From: Lentzea tibetensis
GTDB lineage: Bacteria; Actinomycetota; Actinomycetes; Mycobacteriales; Pseudonocardiaceae
Reading direction: 5' to 3'
Length of the DNA stretch: 64,000 nucleotides
Assembly (NCBI RefSeq): GCF_007845675.1
Contig: NZ_VOBR01000005.1
Coordinates: 358,439-422,438, forward strand
The stretch's first letter is position 1, and each line of letters starts with the position of its first letter. Below the pieces are notes generated by a model. It worked only from the letters and a program-made list of their open reading frames with translations. It ran no database searches and had not been told where the DNA came from. Positions 3,705 to 13,245 of this stretch are shown here, piece after piece. The translations under genes and the position numbers were made by a program.

Positions 3705-4937
3705 ATGGTCAAACCTCCGGCTGTCGAGTCGATCCACGCGTCGATCGCGCCCGCCGACACGTTGCTCGCGGAGCGACGTGCGTTGTATTCGCTCGCGGTC
3801 GAGCTGCTCTGTCCTGACATGGGGGACAGCGAGGTCGCGGACGAGGTGCTGGACAGTCCGCTCGTGCGCTTCCACATCGGCGAGGCGCTGGCCGGGCGCG
3901 CGGACATCACGCTGGGCGAGCTGACCGCGTGCCTCGAAGCACCGGGGACGACCCGCTCGGCGCACGGACTGCCCGTCATCGCGGACGCGCGCGCACACGA
4001 ACCGCTCGCCCCGCTGCTGCGGACCATCGAGACCCAGCCGGGGCTGCGGCTGCTGACCGACGGGCCGCGGTTCGAGCAGGCGTACTCGATCGTGGAGCAG
4101 GGCGTTCTGCTCGCACTGAAGGTGAGTCCCGGTCTCATCGAGGACCTGCTGGCGCACGTCAACCTGTTCGCGGTGCTGGATCCGGACACGTCGCACGGGC
4201 TCGCGTCCGCGTCGTCCCGCTGGTTCCCGGGCATCGTGCTCATCGACGCACCGGCGACCCCGATCGAGGTCGCCGAGGGACTCGTTCACGAGGCAGCGCA
4301 CCAAAAGTTCTTCGATTTCGCCATCACGCGACAGTTTCTTGGGGCGAAATCCGATACCGCCGAACAATTTGTCACGTCGTGGTCGAAAAAATCATGGCCG
4401 ATGGAGCAAACCGTCGCGGCGTGGCATGCGTACTCCCTGATGTACCGGTTCGCGATGGACGCCGGCGTCGCTGAAGGGCACTGCGAGGTCAGCGCGGCCT
4501 CGCTGTTGCCGAAGGCGGGCGAACGCGCGGCCGAGATCGGGAACTGGCTGGTGGCCCACGCGGAGTACCTCGAGAACGACGCGCGGACGCTGCTCGCCGG
4601 ACTGCTGGAGACCGTCGAACCTCTCGGTTTCTCCAGCACCAGGAGCACGCAGGCGATCACCGGCCGCCTGCGGCTCGCCCCGGACGTGCGTGTCGCCGCG
4701 CGGAAACAGCGAGGTCAGCGGATAGTGGTCGCCACCGCTTCCATTCCACCCGAGCTGTACTGGGTTGATCCCGACGCGGCCGACAGCCTTCAGTTGATAA
4801 AGGACGAGGCCGATGGACTCGAAGTCGACGACCTCGTGGACCGTTTGGCGGCGCAGTGGGGTGTTGTGCCGGAGTTTGCCAGGCCGCGGGTCTCAACCGG
4901 GCTACAAGCGTTGCTCGACGCCGCGTTGATTCACTAA
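3705..4937 (+). CDS. HExxH-type peptide-modifying enzyme with C-terminal PqqD-like domain (candidate RiPP hydroxylase)
   Basis: A 410-aa protein that resembles the HEXXH-motif family annotated as alpha-ketoglutarate/iron-dependent peptide beta-hydroxylases of RiPP pathways. The metal-binding HEAAH lies at residues 195-199 within EGLVHEAAHQKFF. The C-terminal portion (about residue 317 onward) has the layout of a PqqD/RRE precursor-recognition domain: a strand-rich start (LRLAPDVRVAARK) followed by a helix with VDDLVDRLAAQWGV and a final helix STGLQALLDAALI. No signal peptide or membrane helix is present. The gene is followed after 56 bp by a 50-aa precursor-like ORF, which supports a peptide-modifying role. 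The start is uncertain: ATG 3705 was chosen, but in-frame ATG 3642/3645 and TTG 3624 are possible. The family call is good; the exact reaction is inference. Confidence 0.78.
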   Translation: MVKPPAVESIHASIAPADTLLAERRALYSLAVELLCPDMGDSEVADEVLDSPLVRFHIGEALAGRADITLGELTACLEAPGTTRSAHGLPVIADARAHEPLAPLLRTIETQPGLRLLTDGPRFEQAYSIVEQGVLLALKVSPGLIEDLLAHVNLFAVLDPDTSHGLASASSRWFPGIVLIDAPATPIEVAEGLVHEAAHQKFFDFAITRQFLGAKSDTAEQFVTSWSKKSWPMEQTVAAWHAYSLMYRFAMDAGVAEGHCEVSAASLLPKAGERAAEIGNWLVAHAEYLENDARTLLAGLLETVEPLGFSSTRSTQAITGRLRLAPDVRVAARKQRGQRIVVATASIPPELYWVDPDAADSLQLIKDEADGLEVDDLVDRLAAQWGVVPEFARPRVSTGLQALLDAALIH

Positions 4938-4993
4938 GTTCCTCCCACTTGATCGTCCGCATTGGACGGTTCCGCATAAAAGGACCTACGACC

Positions 4994-5146
4994 TTGAGCG
5001 AGTCCGTACCGCCCTCTCAGCACCCCGCGTCCCAGCACCCCGGTGCGGGCCCGGTCGGCCAGCCCGTGAACCGCGTCGAGTGGTTCCGCCGGATGCCGAC
5101 GGGGAGCACGGTCTTCGTTCGTCCGAACGAAGCCGACAGCAAGTAA
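4994..5146 (+). CDS. Candidate RiPP precursor peptide, 50 aa
   Basis: A short peptide with a TTG start at 4994 preceded by AAAAGGA nine bases upstream. The N-terminal half is Ser/Pro/Gln/His-rich with a doubled unit (SQHPA, SQHPG) and looks like a disordered leader. The C-terminal half (VNRVEWFRRMPTGSTVFVRP) is compact, with Trp/Phe/Arg residues, ending NEADSK. The position directly behind an HExxH/PqqD-domain enzyme and in front of a strong terminator argues that it is the substrate. It does not end in the FxSxx-COOH motif known for some precursors next to HExxH proteins. Its role as a precursor is inference from context; that the ORF is translated is likely. Confidence 0.65.
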   Translation: MSESVPPSQHPASQHPGAGPVGQPVNRVEWFRRMPTGSTVFVRPNEADSK

Positions 5147-5149
5147 CGA

Positions 5150-5181
5150 GGAAAAGGGACGCCCCGCAGCGTCCCTTTTCC
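5150..5181 (+). terminator. Rho-independent-like terminator after the precursor peptide
   Basis: Perfect 13-bp stem, arms 5150-5162 and 5169-5181 with loop CCCGCA, starting four bases after the TAA of the precursor gene. The stem ends in a T-rich 3' arm (CCCTTTTCC). Confidence 0.85.
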
Positions 5182-5192
5182 TTGAGCTTAAG

Positions 5193-5203
5193 TTGTCTGA
5201 CAA
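5193..5203. promoter_or_regulatory. GntR-type palindrome TTGTCTGACAA
   Basis: Exact palindrome TTGTC-T-GACAA between the two terminators. It fits the FadR-subfamily pattern T-x-GT-n-AC-x-A, and near-identical sequences occur 300 bp away in front of the FadR-type gene. Function at this site is uncertain because it lies between two gene ends. Confidence 0.4.
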
Positions 5204-5205
5204 CA

Positions 5206-5239
5206 GACGACCCCCCGGCCCCGCAACCGGGGGGTCGTC
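5206..5239 (-). terminator. GC-rich terminator of the 51-aa membrane peptide gene
   Basis: Perfect 13-bp stem, arms 5206-5218 and 5227-5239 with an 8-nt loop, located 11 bp beyond the stop of the minus-strand membrane peptide gene. Confidence 0.75.
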
Positions 5240-5250
5240 TCCCCCTCGAT

Positions 5251-5406
5251 TCAGCTGGACATGATGTTGACGACGTTGGTGAAGCCGATGACGACCAGCA
5301 CCACCACGCTGAGACCGAGGATGGTCACCACCGTCCGCCATCCGATCATCGAGACGGCGACGGCGGTGCAGAAAGCGATTCCCAGGGCGTTTCCCGACAC
5401 AGGCAT
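5251..5406 (-). CDS. Hypothetical 51-aa membrane peptide
   Basis: A short ORF whose product is almost entirely hydrophobic: MPVSGNALGIAFCTAVAVSM, then IGWRTVVTILG and VVVLVVIGFTNVVNIMSS, giving two predicted membrane helices around a short Arg-containing turn. The ATG at 5406 is preceded by the strong ribosome-binding site GGAGGT, and the gene has its own terminator, so expression is credible. I do not recognise a family. It is convergent with the candidate RiPP precursor and divergent from the FadR-type regulator gene, so it could be controlled by the same operators. A role in export or immunity for the neighbouring peptide is only a guess. Confidence 0.65.
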   Translation of the reverse strand: MPVSGNALGIAFCTAVAVSMIGWRTVVTILGLSVVVLVVIGFTNVVNIMSS

Positions 5407-5495
5407 GGCTACCTCCGCGCGCCGAAGCGGTCACCAGGGTGGGCGGTCCTGTTTGAGTGCCTCTTCGGCTGTTCCAAGTGTGCCGGGCTAGTAGG

Positions 5496-5528
5496 TTGTC
5501 TGTCAACCGTCTTCCCCCTGACAGACAA
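5496..5528. promoter_or_regulatory. Paired GntR operator sites upstream of the FadR-type gene
   Basis: TTGTCTGTCAA at 5496-5506 and its inverted relative (TTGTCTGTCAG read on the minus strand) at 5518-5528, with centres 22 bp apart, so they lie on the same DNA face. They lie 71-103 bp before the FadR-type start and about 90-120 bp upstream of the membrane peptide start, so they could control both divergent genes. Assignment to this regulator is inference from the T-x-GT-n-AC-x-A pattern and position. Confidence 0.55.
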
Positions 5529-5598
5529 GTTGCATCTGTTGTCCTGCAGGCCTACGCTGGTCTGAATACCCCAGCGTCAGCACAGGCGGGCGACAGTC

Positions 5599-6381
5599 AT
5601 GAACGACGAGAACTCACCCGACGCCGGGAATTGGGCACTTCCGCTCGACTCCCGACGCCCGCTGCCGGAACTGATCGAGGAACAACTCCGAGCGAAGATC
5701 GCGGACGGGTCGCTCGAGGCAGGCGATCGCCTGCCGACCGAGCCGGAGCTGGCACGTCAGCTGAACGTGGCCCGCAGCTCGCTGCGCACCGCGTTGCAGA
5801 GCCTGCAGCACCGGGGAATCGTCGAGGTGCGGCGCGGGCTCGGCTGGTACGTGCGCACCACGAACCTCGACGAGGACGAGTTCGTCGACCGGCAGTTCAC
5901 CGGCAACCACTTCTCCGACGCGGATCTGCTGGAGACGCGCATCGCGCTGGAGACGGCCGCGACGAGCCTCGCCGCGACCCGCGCCACCGACGGCGAGCTC
6001 GACGAGATCGCCAAGCTCAGCACGATGTACCAGCGTGCGACCGAGCTCGCCGACACGATCGAGGCCGACGAGGCGTTCCACCTCGCGATCGTCCGGGCGA
6101 GCCACAACCGGCTGCTGGAGAAGCTCTACCTGGCCCTGGTTCCGCAGCTGCGCGCTTATCGCCGGTCGACGGCGACCCGTCCGGTGCACAACCGGTCCGC
6201 GAACGACCACCAGCAGGTCGTGATGTGGTTGCGGCGCAGGGACGAGGTGGGCGCGCGAATTGCGATGACCACTCACCTTCTCGGGCTCTACCAGGACTTC
6301 GCGGAGGCCGCCGAGCGCGAGGCGACGATGACGAACTTCGTCAGCGTCGACGACGAGCCGATGTGGACTTCAGCGGACTGA
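5599..6381 (+). CDS. FadR-subfamily GntR transcriptional regulator
   Basis: A 260-aa regulator. The N-terminal winged helix-turn-helix covers about residues 20-88 (LPELIEEQLRAKIADGSLEA, GDRLPTEPELARQLNVARSS, GWYVR wing). The C-terminal all-helical FCD ligand-binding domain covers about residues 110-245, with the family metal/ligand residues in LLETRIALE, DEAFHLAIV and HLLGLY. FCD regulators usually sense small carboxylates or sugars acids and autoregulate. Candidate operators lie just upstream (5496-5528). The downstream gene on the same strand encodes an unknown membrane protein. The ATG at 5599 has only a weak ribosome-binding site (GGCGGGCGAC). The effector is unknown. Confidence 0.93.
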   Translation: MNDENSPDAGNWALPLDSRRPLPELIEEQLRAKIADGSLEAGDRLPTEPELARQLNVARSSLRTALQSLQHRGIVEVRRGLGWYVRTTNLDEDEFVDRQFTGNHFSDADLLETRIALETAATSLAATRATDGELDEIAKLSTMYQRATELADTIEADEAFHLAIVRASHNRLLEKLYLALVPQLRAYRRSTATRPVHNRSANDHQQVVMWLRRRDEVGARIAMTTHLLGLYQDFAEAAEREATMTNFVSVDDEPMWTSAD

Positions 6382-6465
6382 CATCCCCCGATCGGCCCTG
6401 TCCATCACCCTGTATGCGCTTTCACCATGTGTGCACGGGTGGTGCGAGGGGACTGCGGGAGGCGC

Positions 6466-7617
6466 GTGGACAGGTGGGCGAGGATGGGGGCCCGCCGTCC
6501 GCGCCCGCGACGGAGGGTGCTGGCCACGGCGTGCGGGCTGCTCGGCACGGGCGTGGCACTTCTCATCGTCGCGGTGGTCGCCGACCCGCCCTACTGGGCG
6601 CACGTCCTGCTGCTCGAGATCTTCCCGCTGCTGACGCTCGCCGGCGTCGTCCTGCTGGTCTACGAGCTGGTGCTGCACCGTTGGCTGGTACACGAGATCG
6701 CCCGGATCGCGGGGCCCGGCATGGTCGGCAACATGCTGCCTCAGGACGTGCTGCGCACGTTCCTCGACTCGATCTACGGCGAGAACGCGGCCAACCACGA
6801 CGTGGTGTCCGGCGTGCTCGGCGGCGAGGGCGTGCGGCCGGGCGGCGAGGGACTGACGATCAGCACGCACACCACGGTCGAGCTGGAGGCCAGCGCGATC
6901 GACCACGACACCTACCACCTGATGTCGACGGTCAGCTACAGCTTCAAGACCCCGGTGGCGAACGACAAGTTCGTCATCTTCGCGACCTGCGACCCGCTGT
7001 TGCGCGACTCGATCATCGCGGGATGCCGGCTACCGCTCTGCGACCTCTGGTACGTGGGTGATCCCGACCTGTTCCACGAGTCGATCGAGGACATGCTGCC
7101 GTCGGTCAACATCGGCATGAGCTACACGGACGAGAGCAACCGGCTGCACACCGCCGCGCTGGAACGGGTCAAGCCCACCGACGTGAAGTTCGAGCGGTGG
7201 GCCGACTACCTGACGTTCTTCCGCGAGCCGATGGGCCCGATGCCCCGGCAGAACCCGCGCAGGCACCTGAACACGCTGCGCATCTTCGAGTGCGACCTGA
7301 GCGGCCTCGCCTACGCCGACCACATCGTCAGCACCATCGAGCGGCTGACCGTGCAGGTCACCACGCTTCAACCCGTCGACGAGGGCTTCCTGTACTGGCA
7401 GTCGCCCTACCCCTGCTACGTCGACACGATCTCGCTCAAGGTCACCGATCTGAGCGTGCACGACCGGGTGTTCGAGTACCGGATCATGCCGTTCACGTTC
7501 CGCTCCAACACCGAGTCCGTGCGCTGGCTGCCCGCGGACCAGCTGGACGACCTGGACGTGCGGTCCTGGTTGTTGCCGGGGCACGGGGTCGTGCTGGTGT
7601 GGCGGGAAGCCCGGTAG
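6466..7617 (+). CDS. Hypothetical protein, two N-terminal membrane helices and large soluble domain
   Basis: A 383-aa protein I cannot assign to a family. A basic N terminus (RRPRPRRR) is followed by two closely spaced hydrophobic helices (LATACGLLGTGVALLIVAVV and HVLLLEIFPLLTLAGVVLL), then about 310 residues that look soluble. Notable stretches are GMVGNMLPQDVLRTFLDSIY, a strand-rich middle (STHTTVELEASAIDHDTYHL) and a Trp/Tyr-rich C-terminal part (FLYWQSPYPCYVDTISLKV). The domain probably faces the cytoplasm. The start is unsure: GTG 6466 has GGGAGG three bases upstream, ATG 6484 has AGG adjacent, and ATG 6427 is also in frame. It follows the FadR-type gene but is separated by over 80 bp. 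Confidence 0.7.
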   Translation: MDRWARMGARRPRPRRRVLATACGLLGTGVALLIVAVVADPPYWAHVLLLEIFPLLTLAGVVLLVYELVLHRWLVHEIARIAGPGMVGNMLPQDVLRTFLDSIYGENAANHDVVSGVLGGEGVRPGGEGLTISTHTTVELEASAIDHDTYHLMSTVSYSFKTPVANDKFVIFATCDPLLRDSIIAGCRLPLCDLWYVGDPDLFHESIEDMLPSVNIGMSYTDESNRLHTAALERVKPTDVKFERWADYLTFFREPMGPMPRQNPRRHLNTLRIFECDLSGLAYADHIVSTIERLTVQVTTLQPVDEGFLYWQSPYPCYVDTISLKVTDLSVHDRVFEYRIMPFTFRSNTESVRWLPADQLDDLDVRSWLLPGHGVVLVWREAR

Positions 7618-7663: not shown

Positions 7664-8659
7664 ATGACGCAACGCAGGCTGGCCGAAGTCGCGGCCAAGG
7701 TCGGGGTCAGCGAGGCCACGGTGAGCCGGGTGCTCAACGGCAAGCCGGGCGTCTCGGAGGCGACGCGCAAGGCCGTGCTGACCGCGTTGGACGTGCTCGG
7801 CTACGAGCGTCCCACCCAGCTGCGCGGCGAGCGGGCCCGGCTGGTCGGGCTCGTGCTGCCCGAGTTGCAGAACCCGATCTTCCCGGCGTTCGCCGACGTG
7901 GTCGGGAACGCGCTGGCGCAGCAGGGCTTCACGCCGGTGCTGTGCACGCGGACCGCGGGTGGCGTGAGCGAGGCCGACTACCTCGAGCTGCTGCTGGAAC
8001 AGCACGTGTCGGGGATCGTGTTCGCGGGCGGGCTGTACGCGCAGGCCGACGCGACGCATGCGCACTACCACCAGATGATCACCCGCAGGTTGCCCGCGGT
8101 GCTGGTCAACGCGGCGATCGACGACCTCGCGTTCCCGCGTGTGTCGTGTGACGACGCGGTGGCCGTCGAGCAGGCGTTCGGACATCTGACGTCGCTCGGG
8201 CACACCCGGATCGGCGCCGTGCTCGGGCCGCCCGACCACGTGCCGTCGCGGCGGAAGCTCGCGGCCTTGCAACGGCTTGCGGGCGGCTTGCGCCTCGAGG
8301 TCGAGCACACGATGTTCTCGCTGGAAGGCGGGCAGGCGGCGGCGAGCAGGCTGGTGCGGAACGGGGTCACGGCGATCATCTGCGCGAGCGATCCGCTGGC
8401 GCTCGGGGCGGTGCGGGCGGTGCGGCGGCACGGGCTCCGCGTGCCCGAGGACGTCTCGGTGGTGGGCTACGACGACTCGGCGTTCATGAACTGCACCGAC
8501 CCGCCGCTGACGACCGTGCGGCAGCCGATCGAGGCGATGGGGCGGGCCGCTGTCGAGCTGCTGGCCAGCCAGATCTCCGGTCGTGCGGTGCTCAACGACG
8601 AGCTGCTCTTCGAGCCTGAACTGGTGGTGAGGGCCTCCACGGCGCCAGCGCCGCGCTAG
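7664..8659 (+). CDS. LacI-family transcriptional repressor of the alpha-glucan operon
   Basis: A 331-aa repressor. The N-terminal LacI helix-turn-helix is textbook: RRLAEVAAKVGVSEATVSRV followed by LNGKPGVSEATRKAVLTAL. The periplasmic-binding-protein-like sensor domain follows, with the family signatures LVGLVLPELQNPIFPAF, GYDDSAF and a C-terminal LTTVRQPIEAMGRAAVELL. It stands 100 bp upstream of, and in the same direction as, a binding protein/permease/glucosidase/GH87 operon, so it most likely senses an imported alpha-gluco-oligosaccharide and controls that operon. A candidate operator overlaps its own start region. Confidence 0.95.
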   Translation: MTQRRLAEVAAKVGVSEATVSRVLNGKPGVSEATRKAVLTALDVLGYERPTQLRGERARLVGLVLPELQNPIFPAFADVVGNALAQQGFTPVLCTRTAGGVSEADYLELLLEQHVSGIVFAGGLYAQADATHAHYHQMITRRLPAVLVNAAIDDLAFPRVSCDDAVAVEQAFGHLTSLGHTRIGAVLGPPDHVPSRRKLAALQRLAGGLRLEVEHTMFSLEGGQAAASRLVRNGVTAIICASDPLALGAVRAVRRHGLRVPEDVSVVGYDDSAFMNCTDPPLTTVRQPIEAMGRAAVELLASQISGRAVLNDELLFEPELVVRASTAPAPR

Positions 8660-8761
8660 TAGTCGAGTTTTTGCGGGATTCGGTTCAGATATTGCGTTCA
8701 GAAGCGCGGCGGTTCTATGGTCGCGCTCTCATCGCAGTGTCGCGAGAAGGGTCCCCTCCTC

Positions 8762-10057
8762 ATGAAGAAGACCGCTGGCTTACTGGCCTGCCTGGTGGTC
8801 GCCGCCTGCAGCAGCGGCCCCGAGCAACCCGCGGGCAAGACCGTGATCGACATCAACGGGCAGCCGCCGCAGACCCAGGCCTTCGACCGCAAGATCTTCG
8901 ACGAGGACGTCGCGGAGTTCGAGCAGACGCACCCGGACATCGACGTCCGGCCGCACGAGGGGTTCATGGACCCCAAGACGTTCTCGGCCAAGCTCGCTGG
9001 CGGGCAGCTGGAGGACGTCTTCTACGTCTACTTCAGCGACCCGGCGCAGCTGATCGCGCGCAACCAGGCGGCGGACATCACCGAGTACGTGAAGGACGTG
9101 CCGCACTACGGGGAGATCCAGCAGGACCTGAGGAGCATCTTCTCCTCCGGCGGCAAGGTGTACGGCATCCCGACCGCCAACTACTCGATGGGGTTGCTGT
9201 ACAGCAAGAAGCTCCTCGCGAAGGCAGGCGTGCAGCCGCCGAAGACGTGGGACGAGGTCCGCGAAGCGGCCAAGAAGGTCAAGGCGCAGGGTGCGACCGG
9301 GTTCGCCGAGTACAGCAAGAGCAACCAGGGCGGCTGGCACTTCACGACGTGGATGAAGTCGATGGGCGGGGACGTCGTCGAGAACGGCAAGGCCGCGTTC
9401 AACAACGACAAGGGCCGCAAGGTGCTGGAGCACCTGAAGAACATGCGCTGGACCGACAACACCATGGGCGACAAGCAGTTGCTCGAGATCGCGGACGTGC
9501 AGACCATGATGGGCTCCGGCCAGCTCGGCATGTACCTCGCCGCGCCGGACAACGTGCCGACGATCGTCAACCAGTTCAAGGGCGACTACGCCGACTACGG
9601 GCTCACCACGATCCCGGACGGCAGGGGCACGCTCATCGGTGGCGAGGGGTACATGATCAACCCCAAGGCGACCAAGGACGAGATCAAGGCCGGACTCACC
9701 TGGGTGCAGTGGAAGTTCCTCAACCCGGACCGCATCGAGAAGAACCTGCAGCGGTACAAGGAAAAGGGACAGCCGATCGGCATGCCGACCCCGCCGGTCG
9801 CGGACGTCTGGACCGGTGACACGCGGGTCAAGCAGGAAGAGCTGAAGGCCAAGTACTCCACCGTCCCGACGGAGAACTTCCAGTCCTACATGGACGGTGC
9901 TACCAAGGTGAAGGGCAGCATCGAGCCGCCCAACGCCCAGCAGGTGTACGCGATCCTCGACGGCGTCATGCAGGCGGTGCTCACCAACGAGCAGGCGGAT
10001 CACGCCCAGCTGTTGAAGGACGCCGAAGCCAAGGTCAACGCGGTGCTGGTGAAGTAG
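8762..10057 (+). CDS. ABC transporter sugar-binding lipoprotein (alpha-glucan oligosaccharide operon)
   Basis: A 431-aa extracellular solute-binding protein of the carbohydrate (family 1) type. The short signal peptide ends in the lipobox VAAC at about residues 15-18, so it is a membrane-anchored lipoprotein. Start ATG 8762 (MKKTAGLLACL) was chosen over an in-frame upstream codon at 8717 because it gives a proper signal peptide. The mature protein carries the usual bilobal pattern, with the hinge-type segments VYGIPTANYSMGLLYSKKLL and LIGGEGYMINPKATKDEI. It is the first gene of an operon with two permeases and three glycosidases, which suggests that gluco-oligosaccharides released by the GH87 enzymes are the ligand. 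The last base of its stop overlaps the next start. Confidence 0.93.
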   Translation: MKKTAGLLACLVVAACSSGPEQPAGKTVIDINGQPPQTQAFDRKIFDEDVAEFEQTHPDIDVRPHEGFMDPKTFSAKLAGGQLEDVFYVYFSDPAQLIARNQAADITEYVKDVPHYGEIQQDLRSIFSSGGKVYGIPTANYSMGLLYSKKLLAKAGVQPPKTWDEVREAAKKVKAQGATGFAEYSKSNQGGWHFTTWMKSMGGDVVENGKAAFNNDKGRKVLEHLKNMRWTDNTMGDKQLLEIADVQTMMGSGQLGMYLAAPDNVPTIVNQFKGDYADYGLTTIPDGRGTLIGGEGYMINPKATKDEIKAGLTWVQWKFLNPDRIEKNLQRYKEKGQPIGMPTPPVADVWTGDTRVKQEELKAKYSTVPTENFQSYMDGATKVKGSIEPPNAQQVYAILDGVMQAVLTNEQADHAQLLKDAEAKVNAVLVK

Positions 10058-10914
10058 TGCGGCGCAACCTCACCGCGTACGGCCTGCTGAGCGGTGCGCT
10101 CGTGGCGTTCGCGTTGTTCTCCTGGTACCCGATCGTCCGCGGTGTGACGTTGAGCTTCCAGCAGGTCAACTTCGTCACCGCGCCGGACTGGGTCGGCTGG
10201 GACAACTTCGCGAAGCTGCTGCGAGATCCGCAGTTCGGCACGGCGTGGCGCAACACGCTGGTCTTCACCCTGCTGGCGCTGGTGCTCGGGTTCGGGGTGC
10301 CGTTCGCGACGGCGGTGGTGCTCAACGAGCTGCGGCACGCCAGGGCGTACTTCCGGCTGGTCGTGTACCTGCCGGTGATGTTGCCGCCCGTGGTGACGGC
10401 ACTGCTGTGGAAGTGGTTCTACGACCCAGGTCCCGGTCTGTTCAACAGCGTGCTCCGGGAGCTCGGTCTGCCGACCGGGACCTGGCTCGACTCCAGTAGC
10501 ACCGCACTCGTGAGCCTGGTCATCGTCACGACCTGGGCGAACATGGGCTCGGCCACGCTGATCTACCTGGCCGCGCTGCAGACGATCCCCGGTGAGCTGT
10601 ACGAGGCGGCCGAGCTGGACGGTGCGAACGTCGTGCAGCGGATCCGGCACGTCACGATCCCGCAGACGAAGTTCGTGCTGGTGATGCTGGCTCTGCTGCA
10701 GGTCGTGGCGACGATGCAGGTGTTCACGGAGCCGTTCATCATGACCGGCGGCGGGCCGGAGGACTCGACGATCACGGTCCTGCTGCTGCTCTACCGGTAC
10801 GCCTTCGTCTACAACGACTTCGGCAGCGCCAGCGCGCTCAGCCTGCTGCTGTTCGCCGTGCTCGGCGTGTTCTCCGCGCTGTACCTCAGGACCACGCGGA
10901 GGGCCGACGCGTGA
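10057..10914 (+). CDS. Carbohydrate ABC transporter permease, MalF type
   Basis: A 285-aa integral membrane permease with six predicted helices and the cytoplasmic EAA loop (LYEAAELDGANVVQRIRHVT, then IPQ) that contacts the ATPase. Start GTG at 10057 overlaps the stop of the binding-protein gene by one base, indicating translational coupling. It should form the membrane channel with the second permease. No ATPase gene is in the operon, so a shared MsmK-like ATPase encoded elsewhere is expected. Confidence 0.95.
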   Translation: MRRNLTAYGLLSGALVAFALFSWYPIVRGVTLSFQQVNFVTAPDWVGWDNFAKLLRDPQFGTAWRNTLVFTLLALVLGFGVPFATAVVLNELRHARAYFRLVVYLPVMLPPVVTALLWKWFYDPGPGLFNSVLRELGLPTGTWLDSSSTALVSLVIVTTWANMGSATLIYLAALQTIPGELYEAAELDGANVVQRIRHVTIPQTKFVLVMLALLQVVATMQVFTEPFIMTGGGPEDSTITVLLLLYRYAFVYNDFGSASALSLLLFAVLGVFSALYLRTTRRADA

Positions 10915-11741
10915 GGACGCTCGTCAAGCCGGGACGGTCCTACTGGTTCGTCTTCACTGCGACCATGGTCGTTTTCACCGCGACCTTCCTCCTCCCGCTG
11001 GCATGGGTCCTGGTCGGCGCGATGAAGCCGCCTGCCGAGCTCGCGCGGATCCCGCCGACCGTGCTGCCTGAGACCTGGGTTCCTGAAACGTACGCGGACG
11101 CGTGGAACTTCATGGACCTCGGTCGCTACTTCCTCAACACCCTGGTCGTGGCGGTCGGCTCGTGGGCCGTGCAGCTCGCGGTCGCGGTGCCCGCGGCGTA
11201 CGCGTTGTCGAAGCTGAGGCCGTTGCTGGGCAACGTGGTCCTCGGGCTGATGCTCGCGACGCTCATGCTGCCGGCTGCCGCGCTGCTCGTCCCGATGTAC
11301 CTGACGATCTCCGACCTGGGTCTGCTCAACTCCCCCACCGCGATCTGGTTCCCCGCCGCCGCCAACGCGTTCAACATCTACCTGCTCAAGCGCTTCTTCG
11401 ACCAGATCCCCGACGAGCTGCTGGAAGCCGCCCGCATGGACGGGGCGGGACCGGTCACGACGCTCGTGAGAATCGTCGTCCCGATCTCACGGCCGGTGCT
11501 CGCCGTGGTGTCGATCTTCGCGGTCGTGGCCGCGTGGAAGGACTTCATCTGGCCGCTGCTCGTCTTCTCCGACCCAGCGGAGCAGACGCTCAGCGTCGCG
11601 TTGCAGCGCTTCGCACCCGACACCCCGATCAACCTCCTGCTGGCCGGACTCGTGCTCGCCAGCCTGCCGATGGTCGCGCTGTTCCTGGCGTTCCAGCGGC
11701 ACATCCTCGCGGGCCTCACCGCGGGCGGCATCAAGGGCTGA
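10911..11741 (+). CDS. Carbohydrate ABC transporter permease, MalG type
   Basis: A 276-aa permease, partner of the preceding gene, whose stop it overlaps by four bases (GTGA). It has the usual helices, the segment AMKPPAELARIPPTVLPETW after the first helix that is typical of MalG-type subunits, and the EAA loop LLEAARMDGAGPVTTLVRIV. It transports sugars across the cytoplasmic membrane together with the binding lipoprotein. Confidence 0.95.
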   Translation: MRTLVKPGRSYWFVFTATMVVFTATFLLPLAWVLVGAMKPPAELARIPPTVLPETWVPETYADAWNFMDLGRYFLNTLVVAVGSWAVQLAVAVPAAYALSKLRPLLGNVVLGLMLATLMLPAAALLVPMYLTISDLGLLNSPTAIWFPAAANAFNIYLLKRFFDQIPDELLEAARMDGAGPVTTLVRIVVPISRPVLAVVSIFAVVAAWKDFIWPLLVFSDPAEQTLSVALQRFAPDTPINLLLAGLVLASLPMVALFLAFQRHILAGLTAGGIKG

Positions 11742-11751
11742 AAGGAACCGC

Positions 11752-13245
11752 ATGAACTGGTGGCGCAGTGCCGCGATCTACCAGGTGTACCTGCGCAGTT
11801 TCGCGGACGGCAACGGTGACGGCATCGGCGATCTCGCGGGGCTGCGCGCGAAGCTCCCGCACATCGCGGGGCTCGGCGCCGACGCGATCTGGCTCAACCC
11901 CTGGTACCCCTCACCACTGGCCGACGGTGGCTACGACGTCGCCGACTACCGCGACGTCGAGCCGGTGTTCGGCACGCTCGTCGAGGCCGAGAAGCTGATC
12001 GACGAGGCGCACGCGCTCGGCATCAGGATCATCATCGACATCGTCCCGAACCACTGCAGCGACCAGCACCCCTGGTTCACCCGAGGCCTCAGGGACCGCT
12101 TTCACTTCCGTGACGACGACGGTGGCGACGCACCGCCGAACGACTGGAAGTCGAGGTTCGGCGGGTCCGCGTGGAGCCGGCTCACCGACGGCTCCTGGTA
12201 CCTGCACCTCTACGCCGCCGAACAGCCGGACCTCAACTGGGAGAACCCGGTGGTGCGCCGGGAGTTCGAGGACATCCTGCGGTTCTGGCTCGACCGCGGC
12301 GTCGACGGGTTCCGCATCGACGTGGCCGACGGGCTGGTCAAGGACTTCAGCAGGCCCGATGCCGAACAGCCGTACTCCGACCAGGACGGCGTTCACGAGA
12401 TCTACCGGCAGTGGCGCCGGATCGCCGACGAGTACGACGGTGAGCGGATCTTCGTCGGCGAGATGTGGTTGCCGGACCCGGTGCGGTTCGCCCGCTACCT
12501 GCGGCCGGACGAGCTGCACTCGGCTTTCAACTTCGACTTCCTCTGCTGCCCGTGGGACGCGACCGAGTTCAGGAAGGTCATCGACGCCACGCTCGCCGCG
12601 CACGAACCCGTTGGCGCGCCACCGACCTGGGTGCTCTCCAACCACGACGTCACGCGGCACGTCACGCGCTACGGCCGCGACGACACCAGCTTCTCCTTCG
12701 CGGACAGGCAACACGCCGCCCCGACCGACCGCGCGACGGGCACCCGGCGGGCCAGGGCCGCGATCCTGCTCACCGCCGGACTGCCCGGCGGCGTGTACGT
12801 CTACCAGGGCGAGGAACTGGGCCTGTGGGAGGTCGAGGACCTGCCGGACGAGCTGCGCGAGGACCCGGTGTGGCACCGCTCCGGCTTCACCGACCGCGGC
12901 CGGGACGGCTGCCGCGTGCCTCTCCCCTGGGGGGACGACGGCCCGTCGTGGCTCCCCCGGCCCCCGGAGTGGGAGCGGTGCTCGGTCGCGGCGCAGTCCG
13001 GCGACCCTGAATCGATGCTCAGCCTGTACCAGCAGGTCTTCCGGCACCGCAGGGACATCAGCGGTGACCTCACCTGGGTCGACAGCGCACCGAACGTGCT
13101 CGCGTTCCAGCGCGACGACGGCTTCACGTGCGTCCTGAACCTCTCGGACGGCCCGATCTCCCTGCCCGGCAAGCCTTTCCTCACCAGCACGCCGCTCGTC
13201 GACGAGCAGCTGCCCACCGACTCCGCCGCTTGGATCCGTGTGTGA
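11752..13245 (+). CDS. GH13 alpha-glucosidase, cytoplasmic
   Basis: A 497-aa family GH13 enzyme of the oligo-1,6-glucosidase/alpha-glucosidase type, with no signal peptide, so it should cleave imported oligosaccharides in the cytoplasm. The conserved regions are all present: DIVPNHCS; the nucleophile Asp190 in GFRIDVADG; the acid/base Glu237 in FVGEMW; and the transition-state Asp299 in LSNHDVTRH. It begins WWRSAAIYQVYLRSFADGNG, typical of this subfamily. The gene starts ten bases after the MalG-type permease with AAAGGA upstream, in the same operon. Its substrate is probably an alpha-linked di- or oligosaccharide such as a nigero- or malto-oligosaccharide; linkage preference cannot be read from sequence. 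Confidence 0.95.
   Translation: MNWWRSAAIYQVYLRSFADGNGDGIGDLAGLRAKLPHIAGLGADAIWLNPWYPSPLADGGYDVADYRDVEPVFGTLVEAEKLIDEAHALGIRIIIDIVPNHCSDQHPWFTRGLRDRFHFRDDDGGDAPPNDWKSRFGGSAWSRLTDGSWYLHLYAAEQPDLNWENPVVRREFEDILRFWLDRGVDGFRIDVADGLVKDFSRPDAEQPYSDQDGVHEIYRQWRRIADEYDGERIFVGEMWLPDPVRFARYLRPDELHSAFNFDFLCCPWDATEFRKVIDATLAAHEPVGAPPTWVLSNHDVTRHVTRYGRDDTSFSFADRQHAAPTDRATGTRRARAAILLTAGLPGGVYVYQGEELGLWEVEDLPDELREDPVWHRSGFTDRGRDGCRVPLPWGDDGPSWLPRPPEWERCSVAAQSGDPESMLSLYQQVFRHRRDISGDLTWVDSAPNVLAFQRDDGFTCVLNLSDGPISLPGKPFLTSTPLVDEQLPTDSAAWIRV

Follow-up and report, generated by a model that had tools for sequence, protein, structure and literature searches.

A RiPP-type peptide-oxidation cassette in Pseudonocardiaceae, inferred from a conserved enzyme, precursor, regulator and membrane proteins

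An HExxH enzyme and the genes around it

The window analysed here is a 64,000-nucleotide stretch of the Lentzea tibetensis genome (9.36 Mb). Positions 3705 to 7617 hold the following features.

3705..4937, plus strand: predicted aKG-HExxH peptide hydroxylase, 410 amino acids (from TIGR04267, HExxH conservation and sub-threshold PqqD matches)
4994..5146, plus strand: precursor peptide, 50 amino acids, TTG start (enzyme-linked in 48/48 named loci)
5147..5184, plus strand: hairpin with a 16-bp stem, probable terminator
5251..5406, minus strand: 51-residue hydrophobic protein, a probable two-TM hairpin around IGWR (from hydropathy; 35/48 named loci)
5599..6381, plus strand: GntR/FCD-type transcription regulator (Pfam FCD, 8.3e-24; GntR, 5e-18)
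6427..7617, plus strand: 396-residue protein; N-terminal region with two probable TM helices, then a soluble domain (from hydropathy)

The enzyme comprises a catalytic domain (approximately residues 136–300), with HEAAH at residues 195–199, and a PqqD-like C terminus (approximately residues 350–409). A preliminary description of this DNA had taken it for an HExxH protein of the type known from RiPP pathways. This is borne out by a profile search, in which the NCBIfam model TIGR04267, named aKG-HExxH-type peptide beta-hydroxylase, scores 71.5 bits against a cut-off of 40. The HExxH motif is intact throughout the family, His195, Glu196 and His199 being present in every one of the 41 enzymes aligned; candidates for the third metal ligand are His241 (41/41) and Glu234 (39/41). 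A profile built from 29 enzyme relatives matched the radical SAM-HExxH protein 22nu (E 5.6e-7) and ChlH (8s5f; E 0.0013) in the PDB. The closest named relative, from Lentzea sp. NBRC 105346 (L032), is 72% identical. Sequence comparison places the enzyme in the aKG-HExxH family. Contig C1 of the same genome carries another HExxH gene (L093, 5160–6911, minus strand; 583 residues; TIGR04267, 151.9 bits), which also matches an FxsBH form below cut-off and belongs to a separate system.

The C terminus is harder to place. Pfam PqqD scores 19.7 bits (E 0.0011) against the whole enzyme and 21.3 bits against the C-terminal domain alone, both below the gathering score of 23.4, and PqqD turns up, again below threshold, in just 4 of the 41 enzymes and in 3 of 16 C-terminal domains searched separately. 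Likeness to PqqD domains and RREs such as TfuB1 (6jx3) is suggested by a profile–profile alignment against 29 PqqD domains, which spans all 67 PqqD columns (P 6.7e-5, probability 36%; a GntR control in the same comparison gave P 0.069). The full-length enzyme profile also finds TfuB1 in the PDB, at E 0.025. The C terminus differs from these domains in staying under the Pfam gathering score and in finding no RRE in the PDB when searched alone. Five of the 41 enzymes are too short to contain such a domain. An RRE at the C terminus of the enzyme is likely and its PqqD-like identity plausible. The preliminary description had named the lack of an RRE/PqqD match there as a ground for refutation, and the sub-threshold matches and one profile–profile match answer this weakly.

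A conserved precursor with a near-fixed core

The precursor gene begins 56 nt downstream of the enzyme gene, both reading frames and their spacing being as originally read. Its product has a variable N-terminal part, the core VEWFRRMPTGSTVFVRP (residues 28–44) and a short tail ending in NEADSK. The absence of an FxSxx terminus was correctly noted in the preliminary description, and none of 17 aligned precursors has one. The consensus of the core across precursors is V-D/E-W/F-F-R-R-M-P-x-G-G-T-V-Y/F.

A pattern-based scan of GTDB contigs yielded 48 named loci from 47 genomes (two are in G002), in records titled Lentzea, Amycolatopsis, Pseudonocardia, Pseudonocardiales/Pseudonocardiaceae MAGs and one Nocardia. 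The last, titled Nocardia sp. NRRL S-836 (L036), carries a cassette of Lentzea type, and its organism name may be wrong. Every one of the 48 has a precursor relative on the enzyme's strand that ends no more than 2.6 kb downstream of it, part of this co-occurrence being built in, since the precursor model was made from ORFs beside enzymes. When the 15 loci whose precursor is a row of the model were set aside, the same held for 33 of the 33 left; these held-out loci are relatives, some with near-identical peptides, and one (L065) shares its genome with a training row. The model gave 77 matches at E<0.1 (76 in the loci and one in the window), all on the strand of the enzyme, the weakest being from Pseudonocardia (L077, E 0.09; L074, 4e-3; L076, 8e-4; L079, 7e-4). 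Within the source genome it returned a single convincing match (E 9.8e-19; the next is at E 0.3). Twenty-five loci have one precursor, 18 have two and five have three, and an additional precursor lies 3.7–4.9 kb upstream in 18 of the 48.

One core pattern fits 68 of the 77 precursors. Among these, the initial residue is always Val or Ile, Asp or Glu stands ahead of the aromatic residue in 55, and that residue is Trp in 53 and Phe in 15; the next Phe is kept in 67, RRM in 45, Thr in 66 and the final Tyr or Phe in 60. Pro and Gly are required by the pattern itself, and finding them in all 68 is therefore no independent evidence. Outside the pattern (nine precursors), Pro is kept in L052, L058, the second copy of L065, L073, L078 and L079, and is missing from the L077 candidate. 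First precursor copies that look decayed occur in L045 (near 11258–11593) and L065 (near 11367–11669); in both, a better copy follows downstream.

Nucleotide differences in the core fall mainly at third codon positions (2653, 2542 and 6842 at positions 1, 2 and 3), the pattern expected for a protein-coding core under selection; in the stretch preceding the core the counts are 6045, 7271 and 8631 (57 sequences and 1243 non-independent pairs in both cases). Conservation, strand bias and codon pattern together rule out a chance ORF. A lack of conservation beside the enzyme in other genomes had been named in advance as grounds for rejecting the RiPP proposal, and the opposite was found for the 50-residue ORF. 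By comparison of sequences, then, this ORF is a conserved partner of the enzyme.

The terminator that had been proposed after the precursor corresponds to a hairpin (RNA fold −31.2 kcal/mol, z −7.6 versus shuffles). It is absent from the output of a scan for consensus terminators, so its reading as a probable terminator comes from the fold. A sigma-70 promoter scan found nothing.

Partners, distribution and phage-borne cores

The locus had been described as a compact two-gene system. This does not hold, as the GntR/FCD regulator and the two-TM and TM-hairpin proteins (5251–7617), overlooked at that stage, are conserved alongside. Crude gene calls, which fail on short or lower-GC contigs, show the enzyme accompanied by the GntR/FCD cluster in 44 of the 48 loci and by the two-TM protein in 42. 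The TM-hairpin protein goes with the cassette in Lentzea and Amycolatopsis; its model finds no match in the Pseudonocardia or MAG loci among the 48, and it belongs to no Pfam family. Searches of Pfam, NCBIfam, PADLOC and the PDB with the two-TM protein gave no convincing match. Gene order varies with lineage. In several Pseudonocardia loci the GntR, two-TM, enzyme and precursor genes follow in that order on one strand, and in most Lentzea and Amycolatopsis loci the GntR and two-TM genes are oriented divergently to a unit made up of the TM-hairpin, enzyme and precursor genes. The window and L032 have enzyme and precursor on the opposite side of the TM-hairpin gene.

In nine loci, by crude calls, the extra upstream precursor has beside it a two-TM protein of a second type, which belongs to cluster 19 in seven of them and to cluster 46 in the other two; Lentzea examples of these clusters include L033 6405–7454, L038 6385–7437 and L044 6284–7219. 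In G089 a protein of the second type adjoins one of the cassette type, with neither enzyme nor precursor (L094, 7953–9035). Six Pseudonocardia loci have a ClpB-like AAA+ gene near the cassette (cluster 24; for example L072 4939–7629), with sub-cut-off ClpB/ClpK matches.

Beyond the cassette, the ten neighbouring proteins scanned in the source genome comprise sugar ABC importer, LacI, alpha-amylase, APH, DUF305, HAD/ACT, COX1 and NmrA-type proteins. None is a radical SAM protein, a peptidase or a peptide exporter, in agreement with the original statement that no radical SAM gene, protease or dedicated transporter lies nearby. Nor did the annotated subset of clusters in relatives include a peptidase or exporter family. 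The LacI, sugar ABC importer and alpha-amylase genes (window 7664–13245), the first of which are syntenic in many Lentzea loci, are probably unrelated.

Within the window's genus, all 25 genomes have the cassette. Sampling 200 genomes from the family gave the enzyme in at least 29, a match to the precursor profile in at least 30 and both in at least 28; these presence counts are lower bounds, with 9 enzyme and 31 precursor candidates scored per genome. The sole enzyme-only genome (G180) has a different HExxH gene, beside what the ORFs suggest is a radical SAM gene. The precursor without the enzyme was found in two genomes, G102 and G168; both are fragmented assemblies in which the precursor lies less than 600 bases from a contig start, so the enzyme was presumably lost at the break. 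Searched for directly, the two-TM protein turned up in 33 of the 200. Every genome with both enzyme and precursor is among these, such that the three co-occur in 28/200. In G089, G151 and G189 it is present and enzyme and precursor were not found, which suggests that the two-TM protein can exist without the peptide. Across 391 family genomes the enzyme matched in at least 58, G180 included (four candidates scored per genome). A wide spread was considered and rejected: among 396 sampled genomes of the phylum, the enzyme profile matched its own genome only.

Two precursor matches are remote from the cassette that their genome carries, and both are in prophages. The core in L088 (G193:C20; approximately 6020–6706, plus strand) opens a protein whose later part is related to Gordonia phage proteins, and is surrounded by portal, head, terminase, endolysin and RecE-like genes (L187). 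The core in L089 (G064:C1:2656144; approximately 6145–6279, minus strand) lies among terminase, portal, integrase and anti-repressor genes (L185/L186). Pattern scans of IMG/VR returned 74 contigs, four of which contain the full motif. L099 (2870–3250) has two full cores in one protein, with thymidylate-synthase and RNA-binding phage families nearby; L100 (319–828) has the core in a viral protein near terminase and portal genes; and a DnaB-type helicase lies near the cores of L103 (11460–11942, in a viral protein) and L108 (6744–6775, minus strand). Other viral pattern matches, such as L107 and L171, were judged to be chance. The L100 protein is 100% identical to G704:C71:17293–17799, and G704 has its own cassette on C72. 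The three prophage cores (L088, L089 and L100) thus correspond to three cassette-bearing genomes, against an enzyme background of 58/391.

Phage and viral cores score 87–117 against the 30 precursors compared, and 300 shuffles of each peak at 46–66. GGSTAY is common to L100 and the precursor of its host. In the set of precursors compared, the MPQGG of L089 recurs solely in that of its host. When whole cores are scored, however, the best match is the host's own precursor for L100 alone; for L089 the host comes fifth, and for L088 it is outside the top ten. A query with L100 over the 391 genomes gave weak chromosomal precursor matches, of which 14 of the 19 places listed adjoin a cassette and the others do not. 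We found no core in INPHARED phages or PLSDB plasmids, and no relatives of the L100 or L103 proteins in INPHARED. The phage-borne cores, recognized from sequence, are a lead to mimicry or capture, not proof of either.

Proposed function and relation to known systems

We read the locus as a RiPP-type peptide-oxidation cassette of Pseudonocardiaceae, made up of the enzyme, a conserved precursor, a regulator and membrane proteins, and give this reading, whose chemistry and role are inferred, a probability of roughly 0.6. The enzyme would hydroxylate the precursor core in an aKG-dependent reaction guided by the leader, as suggested by characterized relatives. PesO hydroxylates Pro at C3, and the residues targeted by earlier aKG-HExxH members were His, Asp, Phe and Gln (PMC13060819); PflC and PosC are aKG-dependent and leader-gated, hydroxylate Gln and cleave the backbone oxidatively, oxidation needing the leader (PMC12636437); and BpmH is predicted for biphenomycin (PMC12257519). 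Because of these precedents and the sequence of the core, we place Pro35 or Phe31 first as the candidate site. The GntR regulator probably controls the cassette. The membrane partners are fixed and no exporter or protease occurs among annotated neighbours, which favours action in or at the producing cell; the product would probably act on or with the two-TM protein.

The phage-borne cores bear on what such a product might do. The cassette is possibly a phage-conflict system, in which the core, modified or not, restrains or arms a membrane effector (the two-TM or TM-hairpin protein) and phage cores are decoys or substrates that subvert it. The occurrence of precursor-like cores in prophages of three cassette-bearing genomes, the three further viral contigs (L099, L103 and L108), core scores well above those of shuffles and the motifs shared by L100 and L089 with their hosts are all consistent with this. 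Toxin or signal roles were also proposed by Kaur et al. for related HExxH/small-peptide pairs (PMC7159879). Nonetheless, the cases are few, the own host scores highest for L100 only, and neither INPHARED nor PLSDB yielded a core. PADLOC-DB, moreover, has no match for the enzyme, two-TM or TM-hairpin proteins; its matches to the GntR regulator are weak (Csa3/CARF, E 0.00075 and 0.03), and the second two-TM type matches LmuB (E 0.0002). The spread of defence genes is usually patchy, unlike the presence of the cassette throughout its genus. We regard this explanation as a minority one and doubtful. A narrower form, a membrane-based conflict system of Pseudonocardiaceae in which the oxidized core is the switch and phages of the same hosts carry the core as decoy or substrate to disarm it, seems to us slightly more doubtful again.

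The fixed partners weigh against the view that the product is a secreted hydroxylated peptide, either antibiotic or signal, whose leader is removed and whose export is handled by genes elsewhere. Unlinked proteases can serve RiPP clusters, according to PMC12636437, and several loci have multiple precursors (18 with two and five with three). However, the core is nearly invariant across species, the constant companions are membrane proteins and a regulator, and neither the scanned neighbours nor the annotated clusters include a peptidase or exporter family. Secretion appears unlikely on balance. Least probable, by a clear distance from an even chance, is that the enzyme hydrolyses the precursor. 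Hydrolysis is the role assumed for HExxH partners of FxSxx-type peptides in PMC7159879, and PflC hydrolyses a leaderless substrate (PMC12636437). Yet the characterized members described in PMC13060819 and PMC12636437 are aKG-dependent oxygenases, PflC hydrolysis being seen there only without the leader, and the current NCBIfam family name is beta-hydroxylase.

A peptide-oxidation cassette of this kind would matter in several ways. It pairs a precursor family of near-fixed core with an enzyme family whose chemistry is just being mapped and, with the usual partner enzymes absent, simple co-expression is enough for testing the enzyme on its substrate. Two membrane-protein families of unknown function are also identified as its partners. 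If the prophage cores are mimics, phages copy a RiPP core, and a part for oxidized peptides in phage–host conflict becomes directly testable. The letters of the core did not occur in the literature searched, and we found no description of this cassette in the accessible portions of the HExxH, FxSxx and Lentzea RiPP literature; most subscription literature lay outside both searches. TIGR04267 itself led to one paper, on Pseudomonas Os17.

Three groups of known systems come closest. The FxSxx-COOH/FxsBH radical SAM-HExxH systems share the HExxH family, a small precursor and an actinobacterial setting. Membership is ruled out by the NEADSK end, the absence of FxSxx termini (0/17) and the lack of a radical SAM protein among the ten scanned neighbours. 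The peptide-processing systems that Kaur et al. described (2020; PMC7159879) likewise combine a zincin-like HExxH protein with a small precursor, and a conflict or signal role was proposed for them. The present core lies outside the FxSxx, RxD and acidic motifs as described there, and no AP-ATPase, VMAP or FtsH partner was found among the ten scanned neighbours or the clusters annotated in relatives. The aKG-HExxH peptide beta-hydroxylases (ChlH, PflC/PosC and PesO, with BpmH predicted) resemble the cassette in TIGR04267, in HExxH and in an adjoining short precursor. Their precursors are of ARMD and R(V/T)DN type in the available text (PMC12636437, PMC13060819), whereas the core here is VDWFRRMPxGGTVY and no MNIO, radical SAM or nitroreductase occurs among annotated neighbours. 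To the arrangement of these hydroxylases the cassette adds a PqqD-like C terminus, a GntR regulator and membrane-protein partners.
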